Positions 286 to 27,564 of a DNA stretch of 41,748 nt are shown here, in pieces (position 1 is the stretch's first letter; each line of letters starts with the position of its first letter). A program made the translations under genes and the position numbers. The stretch is taken from IMG/VR virus record IMGVR_UViG_3300043411_000559, positions 1 through 41,748 of that record; one strand, 5' to 3'. The stretch comes from a virus. Below the pieces are notes generated by a model. The model was not told the DNA's origin. It did not search any database and was given only the letters and a program-made list of their open reading frames with translations.

Positions 286-467
286 TGAAACCACAAACTA
301 CTAATCCTTGCAGCGAACAAGCAGTAAGCAACCGGTACACGAACGCCTGCACACACGACATGGTGGTCCTGCTGACTGTGTGGTATCCTGAAATTTGGAT
401 CTCTTGCACCGTATGCGCTTTGTCTTACCCGTTACGCAGCACCGCTATAGGAGGCATCTCTAAATGA
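285..467 (+). CDS. Possible small orphan protein (60 aa)
   Basis: The frame opens with an ATG that uses the last A of the tRNA-Thr CCA end and closes with a TGA overlapping the ATG of the NAD+ synthetase gene (ATGA). That start/stop arrangement is typical of real genes here. There is no Shine-Dalgarno sequence before the ATG, and the protein is Cys-rich with no recognisable motif. The stretch may instead be a plain leader for the NAD+ synthetase. The call rests on layout only. Confidence 0.25.
   Translation: MKPQTTNPCSEQAVSNRYTNACTHDMVVLLTVWYPEIWISCTVCALSYPLRSTAIGGISK
381..389 (+). promoter_or_regulatory. Candidate extended -10 promoter for nadE
   Basis: The stretch TGGTATCCT matches the TGn plus TATnnT pattern shared by the better promoters of this window. 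It lies about 75 bases before the nadE start and just after the tRNA. No good -35 box is visible, so this is tentative. Confidence 0.3.
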
Positions 468-2050
468 GAATCGGAATGGCTCAACTCAACCCGACTGTTG
501 GGGATCTAGACGGCAACGTCGAAAAGATCATCGAAGCGATTGACGACCTGCGAGACAGCAGCGACCTGATCGTCTTCAGTGAGCTAGCCGTAACAGGCTA
601 TCCCCCTGAAGACCTGTTGCTGAAACCACAGTTCCTCACCGACCAGCGGGCAGCGTTGATGCGGGTAATCGGTGCGACCAAAGACACGGCCGCTGTCGTC
701 GGGTTCGTTCATCAACAAGACGGCCTGCTGTACAACGCCGCCGCCTTGTGCGTAGACGGACATCTTCGACACGTCTACCGGAAACGGCTACTGCCGAACT
801 ACTCGGTGTTTGACGAAGCCCGGTACTTCACTGCCAGCAAAGACCCGGCAACCTGGGTGGACATCAACGGCACAAAAGTCAGCGTCGCTATCTGCGAAGA
901 CATCTGGCAAGAAGAAGGTCCGGTCGCGGAATACAAACACATCGGAGCGGAAGTCGTTGTCGTTTTGAACGCTTCACCGTACTACTATGGGCGACCGTTG
1001 GAACGCGAACAGCACGTGAGCTATCTGGCTAAGCGTCACGGACTGCCGATCGTGTACGTCAACCAAGTGGGCGGACAAGATGAACTGGTGTTCGACGGAA
1101 GTTCGTTCGCTGTGACCGCTGACGGCCACCTTGTAACAAGGCTCGACTCTTTCAGTGAGGGTCTCACTGTTGCAGACTTGGATCACCCTTGTGAAACGAT
1201 CATGGCGCGCTTCGACCGTTTGCCTGAAGTCTACAACGCTCTCGTGTTGGGAACCCGCGACTATGTCACGAAGAACGGTTTCACCGATGTGGTAGTCGGG
1301 CTTTCAGGTGGGATAGATTCTGCGTTGGTGGCAGCTATCGCCGCTGACGCTTTGGGACCGGAGAATGTGCATGGTGTCCTCATGCCGTCACGGTACTCTA
1401 GTGAACATTCCATCACGGACGCTATCGAACTGGCCGACCAGTTGGGTATCTCGTGGAAGAACATTCCGATTAGAGAGATTCACGACGGCTTCGACATGAC
1501 TTTCAGTTTCTTGTTCGCTCAGTGGGCGGAAGACACCACCGAAGAGAACGCTCAGTCGCGTATCCGAGGCATGATCCTGATGGCGTTGTCCAACAAGTTC
1601 GGATGGATGGTTCTCTCTACCGGCAACAAGTCCGAAATGGCAGTGGGTTACTCCACGCTTTACGGTGACACCGTAGGCGGGTACGCTGTGATCAAAGACG
1701 TGCCGAAACTACTGGTGTACGAGTTGAGCGCCATGCGTGGCTTACCTGAGAGCATCATCCGTAAGGCTCCGTCAGCGGAGCTACGACCGGATCAGACAGA
1801 CGATCAGAGTTTGCCGTCGTATGAGGTTCTGGACCCGATTCTGGAAGCGTACATCGAACAGGACATGACGGCTTCGGAACTGAGAGAAGCGGGGTTCGAC
1901 AACGACGACGGGGTGGTCGACTTCGTAGTCAACCTTGTGGACAGGGCCGAGTACAAGCGTCGCCAGTCTCCACCGGGGCCGCGTGTCACGACGAAAGCTT
2001 TCGGTAAGGATCGTCGGCTGCCGATCACGAACGGTTACGGACTTGCGTGA
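464..2050 (+). CDS. nadE: Glutamine-dependent NAD+ synthetase
   Basis: This enzyme makes NAD+ from nicotinic acid adenine dinucleotide, ATP and glutamine in the cytoplasm. Residues 1-260 form a nitrilase-type glutaminase with the expected Glu40, Lys107 and Cys144 triad (SELAVTGYPPE, YRKRLLPNY, VAICEDIW). Residues 261-528 form the ATP pyrophosphatase-type synthetase with SGGIDS at 281-286. The C-terminal part also has the STGNKSE and YGDTVGGY stretches of the family. The length is close to that of shorter bacterial two-domain enzymes, so it looks intact. A strong AGGAGG sits 8 bases before the ATG. The NADAR gene follows 27 bases downstream, so the pair probably serves NAD+ or ADP-ribose metabolism during infection. 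The family call is firm; the anti-defence role is inference. Confidence 0.95.
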   Translation: MRIGMAQLNPTVGDLDGNVEKIIEAIDDLRDSSDLIVFSELAVTGYPPEDLLLKPQFLTDQRAALMRVIGATKDTAAVVGFVHQQDGLLYNAAALCVDGHLRHVYRKRLLPNYSVFDEARYFTASKDPATWVDINGTKVSVAICEDIWQEEGPVAEYKHIGAEVVVVLNASPYYYGRPLEREQHVSYLAKRHGLPIVYVNQVGGQDELVFDGSSFAVTADGHLVTRLDSFSEGLTVADLDHPCETIMARFDRLPEVYNALVLGTRDYVTKNGFTDVVVGLSGGIDSALVAAIAADALGPENVHGVLMPSRYSSEHSITDAIELADQLGISWKNIPIREIHDGFDMTFSFLFAQWAEDTTEENAQSRIRGMILMALSNKFGWMVLSTGNKSEMAVGYSTLYGDTVGGYAVIKDVPKLLVYELSAMRGLPESIIRKAPSAELRPDQTDDQSLPSYEVLDPILEAYIEQDMTASELREAGFDNDDGVVDFVVNLVDRAEYKRRQSPPGPRVTTKAFGKDRRLPITNGYGLA

Positions 2051-16065: not shown

Positions 16066-16082
16066 GTCTATCCTGTCTAGTC
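16063..16082 (-). repeat. Shared translation leader, copy 2 (Sak4-like gene)
   Basis: The minus strand reads GACTAGACAGGATAGACATG, differing from copy 1 by one base missing between AGGA and TAGACATG. The TAG in it is the stop codon of the Cas4-like gene, so the leader spans a stop/start joint. Confidence 0.7.
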
Positions 16083-16931
16083 TGTATCTTCAATGGGTTC
16101 ATGCAGTTTAGCATGAATAGGTACAACAATGCCACACTCTTCAGTGTAGTCACACCAAGTGCAGCTATCAGCGCCGATACTCGGAATGTAAATCTCGTTC
16201 TTCACTGCCTTTTCGATCTCGTTGCAAACCCTGTACAACCGCATCATATCAGCATCGTCGCGGTCCCCGGCATCAATCTCCTTGTTGCCCCACAGATGAT
16301 ACCAGATCGCTTTACGGGGAAGCTTCTTGTAAGCTTCGTACAGGTTTGCTCCATTAGGCATCGGAGGATACCGGGGATCGTTTTCGAAGCCCAACCAGAA
16401 CTCTGGTTGCTCCGAAGCGTACGAGTAGATCGTGAACTGTATGTCCAAGCGAAGCTGCATCAGTGTGGGTTGCTTGGAGTTGGTCTTGTAGTCCACGATC
16501 CGCAACACGTTCTTGCCGCGACCGGACTTCTTCTTCTCAACAAGGTCAACGATGCCAGACAAAGTGTGTTCACCGAAAGGCACACAGAACTTGTGCTCAG
16601 TAGCGACCACGGTGCGTGTCTCCCAGGCATGATGCGAGTCGTACTCTTGCAAGATTTCGATACCACGTTTACGCAAACCGCCGTAAGTTGTGAACTTCGG
16701 CCAATAGTCGATACCAGCACCAAGGATCTCCGGTTCGTGCCAGGTCTGCTTGAACCGTTTGATGGACTCGTCCACGTTACCGTGCTTGTTGTACCCCTCT
16801 AACGCTTCGTGGATACAAGTACCGAAAGTTGCCTTGGCATTGTTTCGATATGGTAGCTGATCCAATTCCGCAAACCGCGCCTGTAATGGACATAACATCC
16901 ACCGCTTCATAAGGGAAGCGTTAAACTTCAC
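16077..16931 (-). CDS. Cas4/RecB-type PD-(D/E)XK exonuclease
   Basis: The 284-residue protein carries the catalytic set of the family: His41 in TCIHEALEG, GIVD with Asp129, VDYKT with Asp147 and Lys149, and Gln165 in QFTIYSY. Cys14 plus three C-terminal Cys (CTWCDYTEEC near 258-267) form the iron-sulphur site typical of Cas4. It should resect DNA ends for recombination with the Sak4-like ATPase downstream. The start is GTG 16931, overlapping the endonuclease VII-like stop (GTGA). No CRISPR elements accompany it, as usual for phage Cas4-like nucleases. Confidence 0.9.
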   Translation of the reverse strand: MKFNASLMKRWMLCPLQARFAELDQLPYRNNAKATFGTCIHEALEGYNKHGNVDESIKRFKQTWHEPEILGAGIDYWPKFTTYGGLRKRGIEILQEYDSHHAWETRTVVATEHKFCVPFGEHTLSGIVDLVEKKKSGRGKNVLRIVDYKTNSKQPTLMQLRLDIQFTIYSYASEQPEFWLGFENDPRYPPMPNGANLYEAYKKLPRKAIWYHLWGNKEIDAGDRDDADMMRLYRVCNEIEKAVKNEIYIPSIGADSCTWCDYTEECGIVVPIHAKLHEPIEDTD

Positions 16932-17380: not shown

Positions 17381-17536
17381 TCACTTACGCCACCATCTCT
17401 TCCTCTTTGGTAAAGCCGTCACTTCAAGGGGACCATACCCTGTCCAACGCCGCATGTCGTGCGGCTCTTTATGGTCCGCAGGCAACACACACACCACCAC
17501 GAATCGGCCATTGATGCCCTCACAGCTACAAGTCAC
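17381..17536 (-). CDS. Small basic protein downstream of the XRE gene (51 aa)
   Basis: The frame runs from GTG 17536, overlapping the XRE stop (GTGA), to TGA at 17381. GGTGAG lies 6 bases before the start. The product begins MTCSCEGINGRFVVVCVLP and ends in a strongly basic tail (PKRKRWWRK). CSC and one more Cys could bind metal. It fills the gap between the XRE and endonuclease VII-like genes exactly. No family is recognised. Confidence 0.5.
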   Translation of the reverse strand: MTCSCEGINGRFVVVCVLPADHKEPHDMRRWTGYGPLEVTALPKRKRWWRK

Positions 17537-17772
17537 TTCAATCTCACCAAGAACACAACCTCAGCGTCAGACAACTCCAACACCGCAGCAATGTTACAAA
17601 ACGCTCTAAACGAAGGCTCCATCTCACCAGACTCAATCTTACTCACATACGACGGAGACAAACCGGCAGCAGCAGACAACGCTCTAGCCGACAATTGTTT
17701 CTGACGCCGCTTGAAGTTGATCGCTGTCCCGACGTTCACAGTACCGCTCATACCATCCGATCTCTTTTTCAT
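17533..17772 (-). CDS. XRE-family helix-turn-helix repressor-like protein
   Basis: The 79-residue protein is essentially one Cro/C1-type HTH domain: FKRRQKQLSARALSAAAGLS, then SYVSKIESGEMEPSFRAF and a final helix. It should bind an operator as a dimer. The start is uncertain: ATG 17772 (AGGA 9 bases upstream), ATG 17751, or GTG 17739, which lies 7 bases after a TGGTATGAG extended -10-like box and could be leaderless. Any choice overlaps the 3' end of the upstream gene by 56-89 bases, the longest overlap in the window. It may regulate the early operon. With no integrase in view, lysogeny is not implied. Confidence 0.8.
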   Translation of the reverse strand: MKKRSDGMSGTVNVGTAINFKRRQKQLSARALSAAAGLSPSYVSKIESGEMEPSFRAFCNIAAVLELSDAEVVFLVRLK

Positions 17773-18301
17773 CTAACACGATCCTACCACAGATAAAACA
17801 TTCCCACGCTTCATAGGTGTAATCCCACACTTTTCTCGAATGGTCACAAGCTTCAACAAAGTTGAACTCACCAGGCATCTTGATCATATGCGGCAACTGT
17901 ACTTCGTGACAATAATCGACGCGCTTCTCGTCTTTCTCGAACCAATGAACCTCAGCTTGTTCAACCTGCTCGGCAGGCAACCAACCTAATACGTCCACAG
18001 ATTTCAGGTTCGGTATGTGGACGAAAACATACACATCTACGTCTAGCCACCTAGCATACACCCTGTAAGGTGGGCGCACCCCAGGAACAGTACGAATCGT
18101 GCGTCCCTCGTCGTCGGTAGTGATAAACGCCAACGCACGAGAGTTACCTTTCTTCAAATCGTCTAACGTTGGGGCGCGGTCATACGAGTCCAGAAACGCC
18201 ACGTCAGCAAAGGTGTTGCGAAAATCGTTTCCTGCTTCTTTCGTCAGGATGCGTCGCCGCAAAACTTCTCGTGTTGTTTTCACTAAATGGTCTTGTTCCA
18301 C
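17684..18301 (-). CDS. First gene of the early operon, unrecognised (205 aa)
   Basis: The GTG at 18301 sits 8 bases past a strong -10 box, so it is probably the first codon of a leaderless mRNA; an in-frame TTG at 18337 would lie in the -35 box. The protein has a beta-rich middle (YRVYARWLDVDVYVFVHIP, then VDVLGWLPAEQVEQ) that recalls restriction-endonuclease-like cores, with acidic residues upstream (NDFRNTFADVAFLDS). It also has a CFICGRI pair near the C terminus. Those are hints only and no family is assigned. First-transcribed phage genes often act against the host or its defences. Confidence 0.65.
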   Translation of the reverse strand: MEQDHLVKTTREVLRRRILTKEAGNDFRNTFADVAFLDSYDRAPTLDDLKKGNSRALAFITTDDEGRTIRTVPGVRPPYRVYARWLDVDVYVFVHIPNLKSVDVLGWLPAEQVEQAEVHWFEKDEKRVDYCHEVQLPHMIKMPGEFNFVEACDHSRKVWDYTYEAWECFICGRIVLDEKEIGWYERYCERRDSDQLQAASETIVG

Positions 18302-18337
18302 TAGCGGCACTATACCACTATCAGGTGTCGAAAGCAA
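18302..18337 (-). promoter_or_regulatory. Main promoter of the minus-strand early/replication operon
   Basis: On the minus strand TTGCTT (18337-18332), a 17-base spacer and TATAGT (18314-18309) preceded by TGG form a near-consensus promoter. Seven bases later lies GTG 18301 with no ribosome binding site. It overlaps the 3' end of the last lysis-block gene and marks the boundary between the late and early regions. Confidence 0.75.
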
Positions 18338-18626
18338 GCCGCTTTCTGATCAACCAGTTCCTACCGATATAGAAAGGGTGAACCATCTCGTAAACCACAT
18401 GGATACGATCCGGCGCTACTTGCCGGTCACCGAACATCAAATGCCACGTCAAGCCACCCCACATAACAGCCAGCATCGACCGACCAACAGGATGCTTCTT
18501 AGTGTGCCAAAAAGCGGCAGACAACGTATGGCGTTCAGTTCTTAACGCCCAAACATCATAGCCCACCACAACAGCAAAAATGGCGGCCCAACCAGCGAAA
18601 GCCACCGTCAAACCCGGTTCGTTCAT
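18321..18626 (-). CDS. Small membrane protein of the lysis block (101 aa)
   Basis: The ATG at 18626 overlaps the stop of the PAS-like gene (ATGA). Residues 5-27 form a clear transmembrane helix (LTVAFAGWAAIFAVVVGYDVW), and a second, weaker segment lies at 50-64 (SMLAVMWGGLTWHLMF). Basic residues lie between and after them. Actinophages often carry such a protein after the lysin, sometimes suggested to aid lysis. Holin or accessory activity is inference. The main early promoter begins within its last codons. Confidence 0.65.
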   Translation of the reverse strand: MNEPGLTVAFAGWAAIFAVVVGYDVWALRTERHTLSAAFWHTKKHPVGRSMLAVMWGGLTWHLMFGDRQVAPDRIHVVYEMVHPFYIGRNWLIRKRLAFDT

Positions 18627-19312
18627 GTCTCTACAGGCACCAAAGTTGATAGGAAATAGCTGTGATCGTTCGGACCCTTCAAGCAGTGACCGTGAGCAGA
18701 GTAACGCCCCACAACTTCCTGTGTTTTAGCCTTAACAAGAGTGTACTCGCCGTCATAATCCTCTGCGCGTTGCCCTGCGTGCTCTGCCGCGTGGCGAACA
18801 ATGTCGCGCTCTGATTCTTCGATACTCAACCATTCGCCGCCAGCCAAAACCTCAGCCATTGTTAACCCAATCAAACGTAGGTAAGCACGGTTAGCCCAAA
18901 GCATCTCGTAACCGCCCTCCCACACTTCGTGCAACATCGCCGGTGTATCACCGCTAGCCATAACCGCTTTCATGATGTTGACTTGGTTCGTGCTGATGTG
19001 GTGTTCCAAGTTCTCTAACTGATTCACAAGATCAACGCCCAAAGCTTCTATCCTGGCGTTGGTTTCTTCCTCTGAACTCATATGTGCCCTCAAAGCCGTG
19101 TCCAGACTGGACAACGTTGCAGTCAACTCTTCAACTCGGGTGTCCGTAGCCCGCTCCTTCAACTGCTGAGCGAACTCGGCTCGCACGCCACTCTTAACGC
19201 GGTGAGCCACCCACCAGGCGGCAGGAACGATAACAGCGGCGATACTCACTATGATTCCAACTTGAGATAACGTTTGTGAAGCTGCTGCCAGCAGCACTAA
19301 AGCAAAGATCAC
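18623..19312 (-). CDS. Membrane-anchored coiled-coil protein with a C-terminal PAS-like domain
   Basis: Residues 1-40 hold one long or two short membrane segments (IFALVLLAAASQTLSQVGII, then VSIAAVIVPAAWWVAHRV). Residues 45-110 form a heptad-like coiled coil. Residues 120-229 look like a PAS domain: GGYEMLWANRAYLRLIGLT, then AEVLAGGEWLSIEESERDI, a helical stretch, GEYTLVKAKTQE and the final strands GRYSAHGHCLKG and SYFLSTLVPV. PAS domains sense ligands, redox state or partners. The gene lies just after the lysin, where a holin or holin partner is expected, so it could tie lysis to a cell-state signal. The PAS call is by eye and should be checked by fold search; the lysis role is inference. 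Confidence 0.7.
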   Translation of the reverse strand: MIFALVLLAAASQTLSQVGIIVSIAAVIVPAAWWVAHRVKSGVRAEFAQQLKERATDTRVEELTATLSSLDTALRAHMSSEEETNARIEALGVDLVNQLENLEHHISTNQVNIMKAVMASGDTPAMLHEVWEGGYEMLWANRAYLRLIGLTMAEVLAGGEWLSIEESERDIVRHAAEHAGQRAEDYDGEYTLVKAKTQEVVGRYSAHGHCLKGPNDHSYFLSTLVPVET

Positions 19313-19313
19313 T

Positions 19314-20090
19314 TCACACGCGGCCCTTCGTGTACGTGTGGTAAATCAACCACTGCCACGTCTTCCGGTTCATGTTACCATACTTGCGCTTAGGAACAAG
19401 CTTCAAGAACTTCTGGAACGCTACAACCTTGTTATGAGTGCCAACACCATAAGTGCCTGTCTGCGGCAGCCCGAGCGCCTTCTGAACAATCTTGACTTGC
19501 TCGCCGGTATCACCCATCGTCAAGAAAGGCTTCTTCTTCGCTTGCTCGCCTGCCCACAAGAACCAGTACAGCTTCTCTTGCTGTGTGAGCATCGTCGGGC
19601 CACTAGCTTTGATGCCGGTAGCCAACTCGGCCGGAGACGCCGAGATTTGGAAGTGCATGAAGTCCTTAATGCTCGACCAATCACCGCCCCAGTCAAACAC
19701 CCACGCACCGTTGTTTGTTTGAACTGCACGAATGTCCGCCAGCATAGCTTCAGGAATGTCGCAATGCCCCGCACGAGTAACCGGGTAAGGGAAATACGGG
19801 TTAGACTGCCAGTTGAAATCACCGGCAATACCATAAGCGTGCAGCGAGTAACCGGAACCACCCGTGATAGCACGACAGACGTAAGCGCCGGTATCCGCTG
19901 GACGGAACTTGTAATTGTGCTTCTTCGCTATAGCATCAAACGTGCGCCAAGCCGCCACGGTGCGGCTATCAACCGTGATGCTCGCACCTGAACAGCACCA
20001 CAACGGCAGTCGAACCATTCTGCCTGGACTACAAGCTGGACCCCACAAAGAACGAAGGGCAGTAGTGTTTCTAAGAAGACGACCGGCCAT
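19314..20090 (-). CDS. Endolysin: M15 peptidase with peptidoglycan-binding domain
   Basis: The 258-residue lysin has an M15 (VanY/L-alanyl-D-glutamate or D-Ala-D-Ala peptidase) domain. The zinc ligands are His84 and Asp91 in SLHAYGIAGDFN and His146 in KDFMHFQI. From about 180 to 255 a PG_binding_1-type domain follows (MGDTGEQVKIVQKALGL, GTYGVGTHNKVVAFQKFLKL). It cleaves peptide bonds of the host wall. No signal peptide is evident, so it needs a holin for release; the gene two bases upstream is the candidate. It is a single complete gene, with no separate mycolylarabinogalactan esterase seen. Confidence 0.9.
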   Translation of the reverse strand: MAGRLLRNTTALRSLWGPACSPGRMVRLPLWCCSGASITVDSRTVAAWRTFDAIAKKHNYKFRPADTGAYVCRAITGGSGYSLHAYGIAGDFNWQSNPYFPYPVTRAGHCDIPEAMLADIRAVQTNNGAWVFDWGGDWSSIKDFMHFQISASPAELATGIKASGPTMLTQQEKLYWFLWAGEQAKKKPFLTMGDTGEQVKIVQKALGLPQTGTYGVGTHNKVVAFQKFLKLVPKRKYGNMNRKTWQWLIYHTYTKGRV

Positions 20091-20092
20091 GA

Positions 20093-20428
20093 TCAGTCAC
20101 CGGCCACATCTTCAACCACCGGGAAATCTTCAGGATCAGGCCAAACAGTATCGGCTTCGTCTTTACCGGGTTGTAGATCCTCGTGAGACTCGGCGTCTTC
20201 AACCGCATAGAACTCTGGAGTTACCCGAGGACGAGTACGGTAGAAGCCCTGGTATAGCACCATAGCGGCACCAACAAACGCTACAACGGCACCTGGCACG
20301 GCAGCAGGGATCGCAACGCCGAAAGCGGCGATCAATCCAAGAGTCGCAGTGACAAGAGCAATGACAGAAGCGGTCTGCACGCTGTGCAGCCTCACCGGTT
20401 CAGTTACCGGATTCAATGGACCTGGCAT
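20093..20428 (-). CDS. Holin candidate (two membrane segments, 111 aa)
   Basis: The small protein has two hydrophobic segments at about 20-40 (TASVIALVTATLGLIAAFGV) and 42-60 (PAAVPGAVVAFVGAAMVLY). A basic turn (RTRPR) and a long acidic C-terminal tail follow. Two segments plus a charged tail, directly before the lysin with a two-base gap, fit a class II holin. AGGGAG lies 8 bases before the ATG. The 74-base leader has a weak hairpin (TGTCT/AGACA) that may not be significant. Confidence 0.72.
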   Translation of the reverse strand: MPGPLNPVTEPVRLHSVQTASVIALVTATLGLIAAFGVAIPAAVPGAVVAFVGAAMVLYQGFYRTRPRVTPEFYAVEDAESHEDLQPGKDEADTVWPDPEDFPVVEDVAGD

Positions 20429-20502: not shown

Positions 20503-21240
20503 TCAGCTTGTAGGGATAACCCCTACTTGTTCGCCCCACTCGTCCGCAAAACTCGGCCCTTCAAGCCACATCATACCCTGACTGCCCGAAGGTAGTCCGG
20601 AAAGTTTGAACCAGAATTCCATTGTGAGATTCACCAGTGAACGAAAATCGACCGCGGGGAATCGAATGTACGAAGTGTTCTCTGTCAACTCAACGGAAGT
20701 CCCAGTGTCGACCGGAACGGAACCGTTTGCCAACCCCGCCATGTTTACGTACGTTCCGGAACTGTTTCCCATTGCGTCAACAGCCACCGTGCCAGAACTT
20801 TCATTTAACCTGAAATACATCAAAGGGCTATCTGCTATGACGGTAGCAGCATACCCGCTAACTCTTGCAGCGTAATGGTCGGCAACTTCTCCCGAAGTCA
20901 AAGCCCTGTCATATATGGCTAACTCGTCAGCCAAACATGAAGGTGACACGATTTCAAGCGTATTCGTATTCCTCGCACCGAAGTATTGATTGGTGATTGT
21001 TTGATTGATGTCAGGAAACGGATCAGGCATCCCTATATCAAGCATCTCCACACCATCAAGATAGGCAAATGCCCCAGCAACGTTATCTAACGTCACAACC
21101 ATGTGGTGCCAAGCGCCGTCATTGACGTTCACTGTCGAATACGATGGGAACGCAGGAGCCGTACCCTGGACGATCGCAAGAACGCGAGCGGTGCTGTCAC
21201 CGGCATAATCACCAACCATCACCTGAACGAAGGTGCTCAT
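20503..21240 (-). CDS. LamG-type lectin-like tail protein with domain halves in swapped order
   Basis: The 245-residue protein starts (ATGA overlap with the upstream gene) in what looks like the second half of a LamG/concanavalin-like jelly roll: VNVNDGAWHHMVVTLDN, GAFAYLDGVEM, then ADELAIYDRALTSGEVADHY, the usual end of such domains. It then begins a second domain (SPLMYFRLNESSGTVAVDA, SGTYVN), which stops near NLTMEFWFKLSG and a short tail, only half complete. It may be a permuted single domain, a domain-swapped oligomer, or a truncated repeat protein. Such domains bind sugars, so a host-surface adhesin role is likely. Confidence 0.72.
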   Translation of the reverse strand: MSTFVQVMVGDYAGDSTARVLAIVQGTAPAFPSYSTVNVNDGAWHHMVVTLDNVAGAFAYLDGVEMLDIGMPDPFPDINQTITNQYFGARNTNTLEIVSPSCLADELAIYDRALTSGEVADHYAARVSGYAATVIADSPLMYFRLNESSGTVAVDAMGNSSGTYVNMAGLANGSVPVDTGTSVELTENTSYIRFPAVDFRSLVNLTMEFWFKLSGLPSGSQGMMWLEGPSFADEWGEQVGVIPTS

Positions 21241-22628
21241 TCGTCAGCCCACGCCCACGAAATGTCGGTATCGCTGTGCTGCACCACCATGTACACGCTG
21301 ACCGTCAAACTTGCCGCTGCGCCATCTCCGGCGAAATCGGCTTGGTCAACATCAACAGTTAAAGAGTCACCCTCGTAGAGCATCACAACATCAGGAACAG
21401 TTCGAATCCCTATCAGATCCCCAACTGCAACCTCCGGACGGTTGGCTTGTGTCGTGTAGATAGTTGTAGAAGTAGGAGTCGCGTCAGCTTCCGAATACCT
21501 GTTGACATCAACAATGATCGCGTCCGTATCCGGCGCCACACCCAAAGCGGCTCGACACCCTATGATTTGTGCTCGGTCGAACTCGCAAATCCACCTGTAC
21601 GTGCCTTCAGCCACTTGCGGTGTTTCCTTTGCGAACGTAGCGATATGCGGCACCACGTTGCGGCCTGGTGGAAGATAACCTTGGACTTCTTCAACGTCCG
21701 TCAACAGAATCTTCGAAGGTGAATCTGTAGTTTGGGCAAACGCCGGTGGCGCCCCAGTAGTAGTCCCAGCCCCAACATCTGTGTACTCAGGTGTGATGAT
21801 TCCAGAACCCTCACTGGTTTCCTCAACCACCCAGTCCAAGAAACTGTCTTCGTAGTCTGCCGACACATACGTCCGGTAGATCCGCCACGTGTACCCGGCC
21901 GGAACTGTTGGGGTAGCCCCAGGCAAGCTAACGACCACACTGTTAGAAGAGTTCGTGGTGTTAGCTACCGGTAGCGTACGGTCACAGTCCGCTGTTACCG
22001 TGTTGTTATCAACATAGGTATCTGGCGGGGTAGCAATTTCCATGTCAACAGAAGCCAAGTAGAAATACTTGGTGTTGCCAGGCTTGCGTCGATAGATGTT
22101 GAATCCTGATGCCCCATTGGGAAGCGTCGGAAGCGTCAACGTTATCTTGTTAGTCGAAGTAGTTGTCGGCACGGTCACATAAGCCGGGTTCAACGCTTTC
22201 GTTTCAGAAGTATTGAAATCGACGTAAGCACTCAAAACATAGAAGTAGTTGCCTGGCAGATGCGTTCCACCTGTGGTAGAAACTGTCAGAGTGGACGCTG
22301 CCGGGGTCGTGACAGCTTCCGGAGTATCAACATACGCTTCAGGAGAAGCAGCGGACTCGTTGCCCAAAGAATCGACCAAAGTGTACTTGTACCGCACCCG
22401 TTCAGACGCGTCGATATAACCACCAACGGTGTCTAACGTCAACTCCAACGGAAGAGACGGACTCGTAGCCGCCGACGTTGCACCGTTATGACGATGCGAC
22501 TCCGCACCGATCTCAAGCAGACGATCTATCTGCTCACGATCTGCTTTCGTATACTTGTAACCGTCTTCATCGAAATCGTCACCCGACTCCAATGTCTTCA
22601 ATTTGAAACGATCCGTAGTTCCTGACAT
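21237..22628 (-). CDS. Minor tail protein with FN3-like repeats
   Basis: The 463-residue protein opens with a helical stretch (residues 1-45). Repeated beta domains of the fibronectin III kind follow, each with GNYFYVLSAYV- or RYKYTLVDSLGNES-like strands and GFNIYRRKP or YTWRIYRT motifs, between about residues 65 and 290. A separate C-terminal beta domain follows from about 330. FN3 repeats in phage tails bind or decorate the cell surface. It overlaps the LamG-type gene (ATGA) and probably forms part of the tail tip or side fibres. I do not see a receptor-specific motif. Confidence 0.68.
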   Translation of the reverse strand: MSGTTDRFKLKTLESGDDFDEDGYKYTKADREQIDRLLEIGAESHRHNGATSAATSPSLPLELTLDTVGGYIDASERVRYKYTLVDSLGNESAASPEAYVDTPEAVTTPAASTLTVSTTGGTHLPGNYFYVLSAYVDFNTSETKALNPAYVTVPTTTSTNKITLTLPTLPNGASGFNIYRRKPGNTKYFYLASVDMEIATPPDTYVDNNTVTADCDRTLPVANTTNSSNSVVVSLPGATPTVPAGYTWRIYRTYVSADYEDSFLDWVVEETSEGSGIITPEYTDVGAGTTTGAPPAFAQTTDSPSKILLTDVEEVQGYLPPGRNVVPHIATFAKETPQVAEGTYRWICEFDRAQIIGCRAALGVAPDTDAIIVDVNRYSEADATPTSTTIYTTQANRPEVAVGDLIGIRTVPDVVMLYEGDSLTVDVDQADFAGDGAAASLTVSVYMVVQHSDTDISWAWADE

Positions 22629-24251: not shown

Positions 24252-27179
24252 CTACAAATCTGTCGTAATGATACGACTGCCTCTACGTTGAGTGCCTGTA
24301 CCCAAGTCCACTATAGCCCAATCGTCGGTGTCGCCCAGCCAATGCGTTGTCAACGTCATGGTGTACTCGCCTGTCTTCAAATCGTGTGACCGAGAAACTC
24401 CACGCACATAATGAATGTAGGTCTCTCCGGTCTGACGTTCCAAAATGCGTACCTGATCATTGATTCCAATAGCAGGGTTAGCGACACAGCTAACAGAACC
24501 AGTACGAGAAGCGAACCAGATGTGCATGGCTATCAACTCGGCCATGACCTTCTGTTCCGCTTTGGACTGGAACACGCCGTTCGTCCACAAAGCTGGCTTA
24601 ACCATGCCCTTCAGAATGTTCCGAGTGTACGGTCTGAACTTTGTAACCAGATTGCCTTTTTGCGAACCTCCAATGGGGTCTTCCTCAGCAATGATGATCA
24701 CAGACCTGGCGTCAGTGTCATTGAAGTTAGTAGAGTAATCCGTTAGATGTACCCGTTCATCAATCTCAGGAATGAAGTTAGTCTGCACTCCTACCTCATC
24801 GAAGTTGCCTGGCGCCCACCAGTTAGGTGACTCGAAATGGGCAGCACCCTGACCATCAATGTAGAAGACATACCCTACGATCTCTTTGATCGTGGTGATG
24901 GCATCCATGACCGGCTTCTTGTCAAAGATTTCATCCGGTAGACACTCCGGCGAGTACGCTCCGGTATCTTCGATGTTGCCGTACACCGGCGCACGTTCCG
25001 TGGAAGAAAACGGTTCAGTAAACAACACCCAACCAGACCATCTCAAAAGACGTCTCACGATTCCGGCGTAATCCTTGTAGTTGCCAGTACGACGCAAAGT
25101 GGAATGGCCTTCTTCGACGGAACCCCAATCCTCAAAGTTGCCGAACGTCTTGAATGACGTGTAGGCAGTAGGCAAAGCGTAACCGCTGTTAGTGCCGTTA
25201 GGAATGATATCCCACACGAGATGTGCAGCCCAGTTCTGCTGATGCTGCTCAGGCAGATCACCTTTGTGTTGACAAGCTCCGAACGCGAACACTTCGCCAG
25301 ATCCGGATACAACCCAATACCCTGTACCGGCAGCGTTTCTCTTGATCGCAGTGTAACGTTCGTCGCCTTCAAGTTCTGAAGCGGGAGGACTGCCGTAACC
25401 CGTCACGGTGCCAATGGCGTCAACCGTACCGGAACGGGAATGCAACAACCAGTAGCCGCCAGGGTCCGTTGGATGGGACTCAATGCCGTGGACCCAATCG
25501 TTCGCAGCAGCAGGGGAACCGTTGCCTGCATGAACAGCGTCACCGAACTCGTAAACACGACCGCCCTTAGTGACGATCCAGTAGCCTTGACCTGAAGGAG
25601 TCAACGCGAAATCCATGCAGTTGTTTGTCGTCACCCCGAGCGTGGACATGTCACCATAGTGGTGTGCGTCTCCATACGCCGTGATGCGACCTTGGCTATC
25701 TAACGTGTAGTAGCCTTCAGCCGTCTTGGTTCCCCTGATGGCAAGAGTGTTGACGCTAGACGAAGACCCACCAAAAGAAGTAGCAGCCGAACCGTGCGGT
25801 GTGGAAACGTTAATGTCGTAGATGTGGGCGTCTCCGAAAGCGTTCACTTGGCCGTTGTTTCGAACTTGCCAATACCCTGAGTTGTTGGCATTCAATGTAC
25901 TTGAAGCAAACGCACCGCCAGTGACAACCGGAGTGATGTTCACCTTCGATTGCATCTTGGCAGCCAGTTCCCTGACACCAGCACGATAATGGTACGGACC
26001 CCACTGAGAGTTCACAAGGTTCGTGAACGTCACACGGATCTTCTCAGCTTTGTAATGCCGCGGCAAAGCGTACCACTGCCCTTGTTCCCAGGGGACACCG
26101 GCCTGCATGACATAAGGAACCTGAGCCGTGTTGGCACCAGTGTAAATTCCGACCCCACCCGTGGCGTAAGGGATCTGGTTAGACCCAACCCATTCGCCTT
26201 CTTCGAATACGGACACATACATCTGATAGTTGCCGCCCCAAGGATGCACATAGATTTGGTTCACGTCGGAACCATCAGTGCACATCTCAATCCACTCCAC
26301 GGCGTATGGGGCCGACTGCTGCGAGTTGCCTACACTCAACCAGAAAGTGTTAGCGTTACCGTCAAAAGCGTCAGAAGGGCGGTGACCGTGCACGGCAGCA
26401 TTAGTTCCATACCAGACGTCCGAACCAGAGTTCCTAGAAGAACCATACGAACAACCGTAATGCGGGTTGACGTCACCGGCAACATACTTGAACTTCTCGG
26501 AGTTGTCGATCTTCTGTTCCACATACCGAAACCGGCACCAATGAGACGGATACCATTTCTTCGGGATCAACGGAGGGTACAACTGCTGATCCAACAGCAG
26601 TTTAGCCATGTCGCGGCACTTCAGATTGATCCTACCACCAGTATCAACAGTTACCTCGTCAACCAGCCAAGTTCCAGAATGAATCAGATTGCCGTCAGCG
26701 ACCGCATCTTCCAACGTCTTGTCGTGTCCACCGAAACCCTCGTACTGTCGGATCAAAGCGTTTGGGGTAAGAACATTTTCCCACTCGTTTGTTTCATGTG
26801 ACCAACGGGCTTGAGAATCAGGGGAAACCCCACGGGTGTGAGTCAAGTATCCTGGCTGCCCCAACTGTCCAGGCACGTTAGCGACATTGTTGGCGTCCAT
26901 CCACTGGTTGTTGATCGTGATGTTGCAAGTAGCAGCATCCGAATCAATACTGGCATCCATGCTCCAAGAAGCAATGTTCGGAATCTCTGTTTCGATCTGG
27001 TTCGTAGTGTCAGCGCGCTGAAACCAACGGTAAGGACCGTACTTAGACTTGCCTACCGTTGCAGCGGTCTTAGTCAGATAGTAGGCTTCTTCCACAGTGA
27101 AACGTGAACAAGGCTTATCCGTACCAACGAAAGGACCGCCACGATCCCATACATCAAAAATCTCTGGTGCCGTTCTCAT
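24252..27179 (-). CDS. Large tail-tip protein with discoidin-like region and GYW/FGD repeats
   Basis: From ATG 27179 the protein has 975 residues. The N- and C-terminal parts carry tail-tip (baseplate hub-like) sequence. At about 240-350 a discoidin/F5-8 type C-like region is seen (AAVHGHRPSDAFDGNANTFW). At about 430-640 there are five units such as GYWQVRNNGQVNAFGDAHIY, GYYTLDSQGRITAYGDAHHY, GYWIVTKGGRVYEFGDAVHA, GYWLLHSRSGTVDAIGTVTG and GYWVVSGSGEVFAFGACQHK. This is a repeat known from secreted actinobacterial proteins. The repeats probably form a propeller-like unit exposed for host binding. The insertion of host-type modules into the tail tip is unusual. Confidence 0.83.
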   Translation of the reverse strand: MRTAPEIFDVWDRGGPFVGTDKPCSRFTVEEAYYLTKTAATVGKSKYGPYRWFQRADTTNQIETEIPNIASWSMDASIDSDAATCNITINNQWMDANNVANVPGQLGQPGYLTHTRGVSPDSQARWSHETNEWENVLTPNALIRQYEGFGGHDKTLEDAVADGNLIHSGTWLVDEVTVDTGGRINLKCRDMAKLLLDQQLYPPLIPKKWYPSHWCRFRYVEQKIDNSEKFKYVAGDVNPHYGCSYGSSRNSGSDVWYGTNAAVHGHRPSDAFDGNANTFWLSVGNSQQSAPYAVEWIEMCTDGSDVNQIYVHPWGGNYQMYVSVFEEGEWVGSNQIPYATGGVGIYTGANTAQVPYVMQAGVPWEQGQWYALPRHYKAEKIRVTFTNLVNSQWGPYHYRAGVRELAAKMQSKVNITPVVTGGAFASSTLNANNSGYWQVRNNGQVNAFGDAHIYDINVSTPHGSAATSFGGSSSSVNTLAIRGTKTAEGYYTLDSQGRITAYGDAHHYGDMSTLGVTTNNCMDFALTPSGQGYWIVTKGGRVYEFGDAVHAGNGSPAAANDWVHGIESHPTDPGGYWLLHSRSGTVDAIGTVTGYGSPPASELEGDERYTAIKRNAAGTGYWVVSGSGEVFAFGACQHKGDLPEQHQQNWAAHLVWDIIPNGTNSGYALPTAYTSFKTFGNFEDWGSVEEGHSTLRRTGNYKDYAGIVRRLLRWSGWVLFTEPFSSTERAPVYGNIEDTGAYSPECLPDEIFDKKPVMDAITTIKEIVGYVFYIDGQGAAHFESPNWWAPGNFDEVGVQTNFIPEIDERVHLTDYSTNFNDTDARSVIIIAEEDPIGGSQKGNLVTKFRPYTRNILKGMVKPALWTNGVFQSKAEQKVMAELIAMHIWFASRTGSVSCVANPAIGINDQVRILERQTGETYIHYVRGVSRSHDLKTGEYTMTLTTHWLGDTDDWAIVDLGTGTQRRGSRIITTDL

Positions 27180-27180
27180 A

Positions 27181-27564
27181 TCAATCCCAATCAAGGATGG
27201 TATAGCGAAGCGTGTACGAATGCTTCCACGGCGAATGAACAGCACGTTCACGTTTAGGCTCGAAAGCCGTAATGTAAACCATGAAAACACGACCCAAATC
27301 ATCAGTAATCTGAATCTGGTGACGCTTAGTATACCACAACAAGAGAGCATCGTGATGCTCTTGCGTCAAGATCGTTCCAGTGATCTCTATTTCCTTCGTT
27401 TCGTCTTGACCTTCGAACATCAAAACCTTACCGTCAGGAGCAGACGTGTTCTGATACGCGATGTTCTTCCGGTAAGAAGGAGAACCACCTTCAGCCGGGT
27501 TGATGTCCAATTCGTAGCTAGTTAACGCTGTTGGGTCATAAAAGGTCCATCTCACAAGAGCCAT
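27181..27564 (-). CDS. Distal tail/minor tail protein (127 aa)
   Basis: The 127-residue beta-rich protein (RWTFYDPTALTSYELDINP, IEITGTILTQEHHDALLLWY, HQIQITDDLGRVFMVYITAF, HSYTLRYTILDWD) lies between the tape measure and tail-tip genes, where the distal tail protein is normally found. The strand pattern fits a Dit-type N-terminal domain, and the short length suggests a minimal form. A TGGTATACT extended -10-like sequence inside it might drive the tail-tip genes. The assignment rests on position and fold impression. Confidence 0.65.
   Translation of the reverse strand: MALVRWTFYDPTALTSYELDINPAEGGSPSYRKNIAYQNTSAPDGKVLMFEGQDETKEIEITGTILTQEHHDALLLWYTKRHQIQITDDLGRVFMVYITAFEPKRERAVHSPWKHSYTLRYTILDWD

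Follow-up and report, generated by a model that had tools for sequence, protein, structure and literature searches.

The window analysed here, i.e., the whole stretch of 41,748 nucleotides of viral DNA, contains a compact operon whose genes run in the order holin-like membrane protein, lysin, the gene at 18623-19312 that is the subject of this work, and a small DUF7427-like membrane protein (Table 1). The GTG start codon of 18623-19312 lies one base past the lysin stop codon (TGA-A-GTG), while its own stop codon overlaps the start of the downstream gene (ATGA), and these 1-bp and 4-bp junctions imply that it is co-expressed with the lysis genes. The earlier note had placed this gene directly after the lysin in the lysis block, and both its position, behind a holin-like gene and an M15_4 lysin, and the tight junctions bear this out. 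Scored against the codon usage of the large genes within the same window, its own frame reaches +0.22, comparable to the neighbouring lysis genes, whereas the other five frames fall between -0.13 and -0.34. It is thus a real gene within a compact operon. Elsewhere in the window, a gene for a NAD synthetase (464-2050, plus strand; phrog_36784, E 6e-154) lies in a block of that strand together with five tRNA genes.

Table 1. Features of the lysis operon and its flanks, with coordinates in the window and the evidence for each assignment
Feature	Position	Strand	Evidence and remarks
Holin-like membrane protein, two hydrophobic segments	20093..20428	-	phrog_9752 holin, E 9.5e-5; hydropathy
Endolysin	19314..20090	-	Peptidase_M15_4, E 7.7e-12; C-terminal PG_binding_1, E 2.5e-4, just below cut-off
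PAS-like-domain gene	18623..19312	-	229 aa, GTG start; TM helix, predicted cytosolic helical linker and C-terminal PAS-like domain
Transmembrane helix, residues 18-36 (VGIIVSIAAVIVPAAWWVA)	19205..19261	-	Hydropathy
Helical, possibly coiled-coil linker, residues 37-120	18953..19204	-	Helical in low-confidence AF2 full-length model
PAS-like domain, residues 121-229	18626..18952	-	Sole Pfam match PAS_8; 48/50 top Foldseek PDB matches PAS/LOV
PAS core motif WANRAYLRLIG (B-beta end and C-alpha)	18867..18898	-	Degenerate PAS pattern
Small membrane protein, DUF7427/phrog_1042-like	18321..18626	-	ATGA overlap with the PAS-like gene; relatives have similar genes close to this block
Conserved gene, end marker of the slot in relatives	17684..18337	-	27-29% identity in G002 and G017
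XRE-type HTH protein, downstream synteny marker	17533..17772	-	Conserved in relatives

The N-terminal half of the encoded protein is that of a membrane protein with one clear TM segment at residues ~18-36, where the 19-residue KD maximum reaches 2.28. The earlier note had spoken of membrane segments in the plural, which is doubtful since the separate hydrophobic stretch at residues 1-11 falls short of the length of a normal TM. The 17-residue N-terminus ahead of the TM carries no charge; directly past it comes HRVKSGVR, and the 15 residues after the TM hold three K/R and one H against one acid. With an uncharged N-terminus and basic residues after the TM, the best prediction from the positive-inside rule is an N-out/C-in topology that puts the linker and the C-terminal region on the cytosolic side; the extra hydrophobic stretch at 1-11 keeps this prediction tentative. 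The linker (residues 37-120), 31% of whose residues are charged, had been described as a coiled coil; its helicity stands in the full-length AF2 model but its periodicity is marginal in a simple heptad test (p 0.07-0.48), and hence a coiled coil is plausible and no more. Weak Pfam matches of this linker, such as that to FANCI_S3, were rejected as helix-composition matches.

An N-terminal anchor followed by a coiled coil that reaches outward, in the slot after an endolysin, would also describe an inner-membrane spanin of the Rz type, a reading to which Rz-like PHROGs (E 0.03-0.4) and LysB (E 0.05) add weak matches. However, these matches span only the TM and helix and are at chance level, and by its charge pattern the protein is predicted to be C-in, whereas Rz is N-in/C-out. 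Moreover, no Rz1-like lipoprotein partner is seen among the neighbouring ORFs listed, and a Gram-positive host is suggested by the peptidoglycan-binding C-termini of the relatives' lysins and by distant capsid relatives that infect Bacillus. We find an Rz-like spanin hardly credible here.

The C-terminal region had been read in the earlier note as a PAS fold, a common cellular sensing and pairing module with the element order strands A-B, helices C-F and strands G-H-I. When residues 115-229 were scanned alone against 24,736 Pfam models, the single match was PAS_8 (E 0.12), whose 12.8 bits stay below the curated cut-off of 21.8 and leave the PAS profile threshold unreached; a second, slightly different cut of the region returned PAS_8 again (E 0.11, 12.9 bits), and the Pfam scan of the full-length protein returned no PAS. 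Because PAS had been named before the Pfam search, the chance of the sole match being a PAS model would be far smaller than 0.12, on the order of 1e-4, although both the earlier reader's impression and the profile draw on one and the same motif. A degenerate PAS pattern has one match in the window and none in shuffles; its DNA counterpart has zero matches in viral_contigs, a figure below the chance estimate that is not counted as absence. Residues 120-229 match no non-PAS phage family in profile searches, and when the domain's sequence was searched against solved structures, the matches were at chance level only and none was PAS. A generic PAS consensus of our own writing aligns well to the domain; it was written after the window sequence was seen, and the alignment, being circular, is not counted as evidence. 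Against the phage collection, the same consensus recovered only bacterial aerotaxis-receptor DNA and very weak matches. By inspection, the protein lacks the LOV cysteine motif. A His/Cys cluster, HGHC, sits at residues 207-210 in the predicted H-beta strand and is only a lead toward a possible metal or haem site.

The single-sequence AlphaFold model of residues 110-229 (pLDDT 44.6) has helices at residues 139-147, 152-157 and 167-177, followed by strands at 185-194, 200-212 and 218-226, which follows the PAS order from C-alpha onward, the last three strands included. Thus, of the five-strand sheet expected for a PAS domain, the final three strands are predicted along with the helices, but the first two (A-beta and B-beta) are unformed. 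A full-length AF2 model of equally low confidence (pLDDT ~45) disagrees with the domain-only model in being all-helical. In a Foldseek search of the PDB, 48 of the 50 top matches of the domain-only model were PAS or LOV domains, with a best E of 0.021, TM scores of 0.3-0.46 and probabilities mostly >0.9 and up to 0.99, values that have to be read as those of a low-confidence model. The same model yielded no coherent family in a BFVD fold search, and no PAS among the named viral models.

The missing threshold-level profile match, the low confidence and disagreement of the two AF2 constructs and the BFVD result would all suit a C-terminal region that is some other small alpha/beta domain or an unstructured tail, in which case the protein would be a plain one-TM lysis accessory whose tail is an orphan. 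Set against this are PAS as the sole Pfam match, its dominance among the PDB fold matches and the residue pattern WANRAYLRLIGLT, which corresponds to the PAS core, and we regard a non-PAS tail as quite improbable. A PAS fold is the best-supported assignment for the region, on convergent evidence from profile and model that stays below formal thresholds, and we consider it very likely that residues 121-229 adopt it. Neither of the two findings by which the earlier note would have given up the PAS reading has come up, the structural one only provisionally.

Homologues of the protein were not found in viral contigs, genomes, plasmids or phage records in scans that detect close relatives only, and ~60 records of structurally related phages, many of them fragmentary, held no match at E up to 10. 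Two PAS families had no match in 16 related records in a six-frame search, which also missed the window's own domain and sees clear PAS members only. A PAS-core regular expression run over 19,275 ORFs from the collected loci found the motif in the window alone and in none of the relatives' ORFs. As a weak control, the Pfam scan of 118 stop-to-stop ORF fragments of related phages showed no PAS among the matches listed (25 of 72). By these searches the protein is an orphan.

The structural genes of the window are related to those of Caudovirales GX15bay (capsid-like protein 58% identical) and of many viral contigs. For the same-slot comparison suggested in the earlier note, the slot was bounded by the tail gene homologous to 21237-22628 on one side and the HTH and RecB genes homologous to 17533-17772 and 16077-16931 on the other. 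Relatives carry differing lysis sets between these bounds and the slot is therefore variable: in G002, the homologue of 17684-18337 comes immediately after the lysin; in G019, that place goes to a 142-aa protein that combines TM segments with a helical tail in the cytosol and lacks PAS (L140:7640-8065; weak holin match to phrog_4884, E 0.025); and in G022 and G023 a holin (phrog_8269) adjoins a DUF7427 protein. The PAS-like gene is absent from this slot in the relatives, where its place is empty or, in one, taken by the non-PAS membrane protein. The PAS-bearing form of the slot is so far, as judged by sequence, unique to the present phage. Since the relatives lyse without the PAS-like gene, it is not essential to the phage group.

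In several relatives, proteins similar to the DUF7427/phrog_1042-like product of 18321-18626 are encoded close to the lysis block but in no fixed order, ahead of the lysin in G013 and behind the holin in G022 and G023, which suggests a lysis-linked family. In two more distant relatives, the block from the tail gene to the RecB-like gene codes for a large protein with ~7-8 hydrophobic segments (L147:16774-17856, minus strand; L148:1879-2982, plus strand). In contig IMGVR_UViG_3300042691_015370 (L039:7091-8935, minus strand), the homologue of the RecB-like nuclease at 16077-16931 is interrupted by ~335 residues (CADSETQILTRRGW... to ...GTVYFTGN) that read as a putative intein. In IMGVR_UViG_3300036771_000101 (G005:C1:30176-33253), a tail protein homologous to 24252-27350 of the window has an in-frame TGA inside the match.

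An orphan gene in one phage, missing from the relatives' slot, and a slot of variable content would also be expected if the PAS fold were read correctly but the gene were cargo that acts on the host and not on lysis, e.g., by using its PAS domain and helical linker to pair with the host's membrane sensor kinases or its chemoreceptors. PAS domains with signalling helices are indeed typical of host receptors. The 1-bp and 4-bp junctions with the lysin and the membrane gene speak against such cargo, as does the absence of a close bacterial relative in scans that see close relatives only; we take it to be a serious contender that is nonetheless unlikely.

A role in lysis has a precedent for the membrane half in LysF1b (DUF2746, PF10874), a described lysis component of 124 aa from the cluster F1 mycobacteriophages Girr and NormanBulbieJr (PMC13056207). 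LysF1b has a single N-terminal TM, a predicted N-out/C-in topology, basic residues past the TM and an extended, helical, charged cytosolic tail; it is encoded in a cassette with a -4 bp (ATGA) overlap and a companion 2-TM protein, and its deletion causes lysis defects with small plaques and changed lysis timing (PMC13056207). The present protein parallels it in its one N-terminal TM, predicted N-out/C-in topology, basic residues after the TM and presumably helical and cytosolic tail, and its gene likewise lies in a lysis cassette with an overlapping junction and a 2-TM partner, the holin-like protein being encoded, with the lysin, directly upstream. Here the ATGA overlap joins the gene to its downstream neighbour, whereas in Girr it joins the LysF1b gene to its upstream neighbour. 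Unlike LysF1b, the present protein has 229 aa and a PAS-like C-terminal domain that LysF1b lacks, and its linker is 31% charged as against 54% for the LysF1b tail. The two have no detectable sequence similarity (BLASTP with Girr gp35, E 0.96), and a match of the present protein to DUF2746/PF10874 is lacking even at E up to 10, against 7.9e-13 for Girr gp35. With architecture and context held in common and sequence not, the best reading by analogy is that the protein would work like LysF1b, which does not imply membership in its family. Conservation of the gene order downstream of LysF1b in Girr was considered and failed, as Girr gp36 is not DUF7427-like. Girr gp35 (L157:3803-4174) itself matches phrog_404 (E 3e-44), and the label 'minor tail protein' of that PHROG looks wrong given the published lysis role of LysF1b.

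We favor, at about even chances, a LysF1b-like membrane protein of the lysis operon with an added cytosolic PAS-fold domain, which acts as a partner of the holin-like protein and serves in pairing and possibly gating. In such an architecture, a short N-terminus outside the cell would lead into a single TM helix, followed by basic residues and by a helical tail in the cytosol to which the PAS-fold domain is added C-terminally, and the protein would work with the 2-TM holin-like protein in membrane permeabilisation. Profile searches (Pfam/PHROG) found no kinase, cyclase or DNA-binding output domain and no HTH match in the protein, and this leaves it no output other than the membrane helix or a protein partner. 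Placed where the linker ends on the cytosolic side, the PAS domain probably pairs subunits, pairing being a common property of PAS domains that has been shown for VqmA (PMC8284805). It may further bind a small molecule, a cofactor or a protein partner and thereby alter the packing of the linker and TM helix, with the effect that lysis would be triggered at a different threshold; that this domain gates lysis by ligand or redox state is, to that extent, conceivable. That it is a built-in cytosolic sensor that gates permeabilisation by a ligand, redox or energy cue, such that lysis timing follows the host state at the membrane and not via transcription, is in our estimate rather unlikely. What sets holin-type timers, and whether a phage reads the state of its host at lysis, are long-standing open questions, and a membrane protein of the lysis operon with a PAS module would make such reading directly testable. 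If true, the LysF1b type of lysis protein, recently described from phages of Gram-positive hosts, would gain a sensory extension.

We found no PAS domain in a lysis cassette in the literature or phage records, and the contention of the earlier note that the protein is not a described lysis component holds to this extent; its membrane half, however, has precedents among described lysis components of actinophages, one-TM proteins with a helical tail in the cytosol whose genes overlap those next to them, in both LysF1b (PMC13056207) and the proteins of Gordonia phages (PMC9671378). The latter phages encode, in lysis cassette arrays, many one-TM, N-out/C-in holin-like proteins of 79-145 aa (PMC9671378), which share with the present protein the predicted topology, the short outside N-terminus and the location in the lysis cassette but have no predicted coiled coil and no reported folded C-terminal domain. 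A phage-encoded PAS domain is, in turn, known from VqmA of vibriophage VP882, a soluble DNA-binding receptor for DPO that acts via the antirepressor Qtip in lysogens, and whose PAS domain controls host lysis timing and also dimerises the protein (PMC8284805). Unlike the present protein, VqmA-phage acts by transcription, is not a membrane protein and is not encoded in a lysis operon; further, its layout of a PAS domain followed by a C-terminal DNA-binding domain is not seen here, where the PAS-like domain ends the protein. With the PAS families of bacterial receptors (Pfam PAS_8, PAS_3), the domain shares the core motif and, from C-alpha onward, the predicted element order, but it differs from them in scoring below the curated cut-off, in having no kinase, cyclase or other output domain and in being viral. 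Thus, the one-TM lysis accessory is a known type, and the putative PAS module on it is what would be new.
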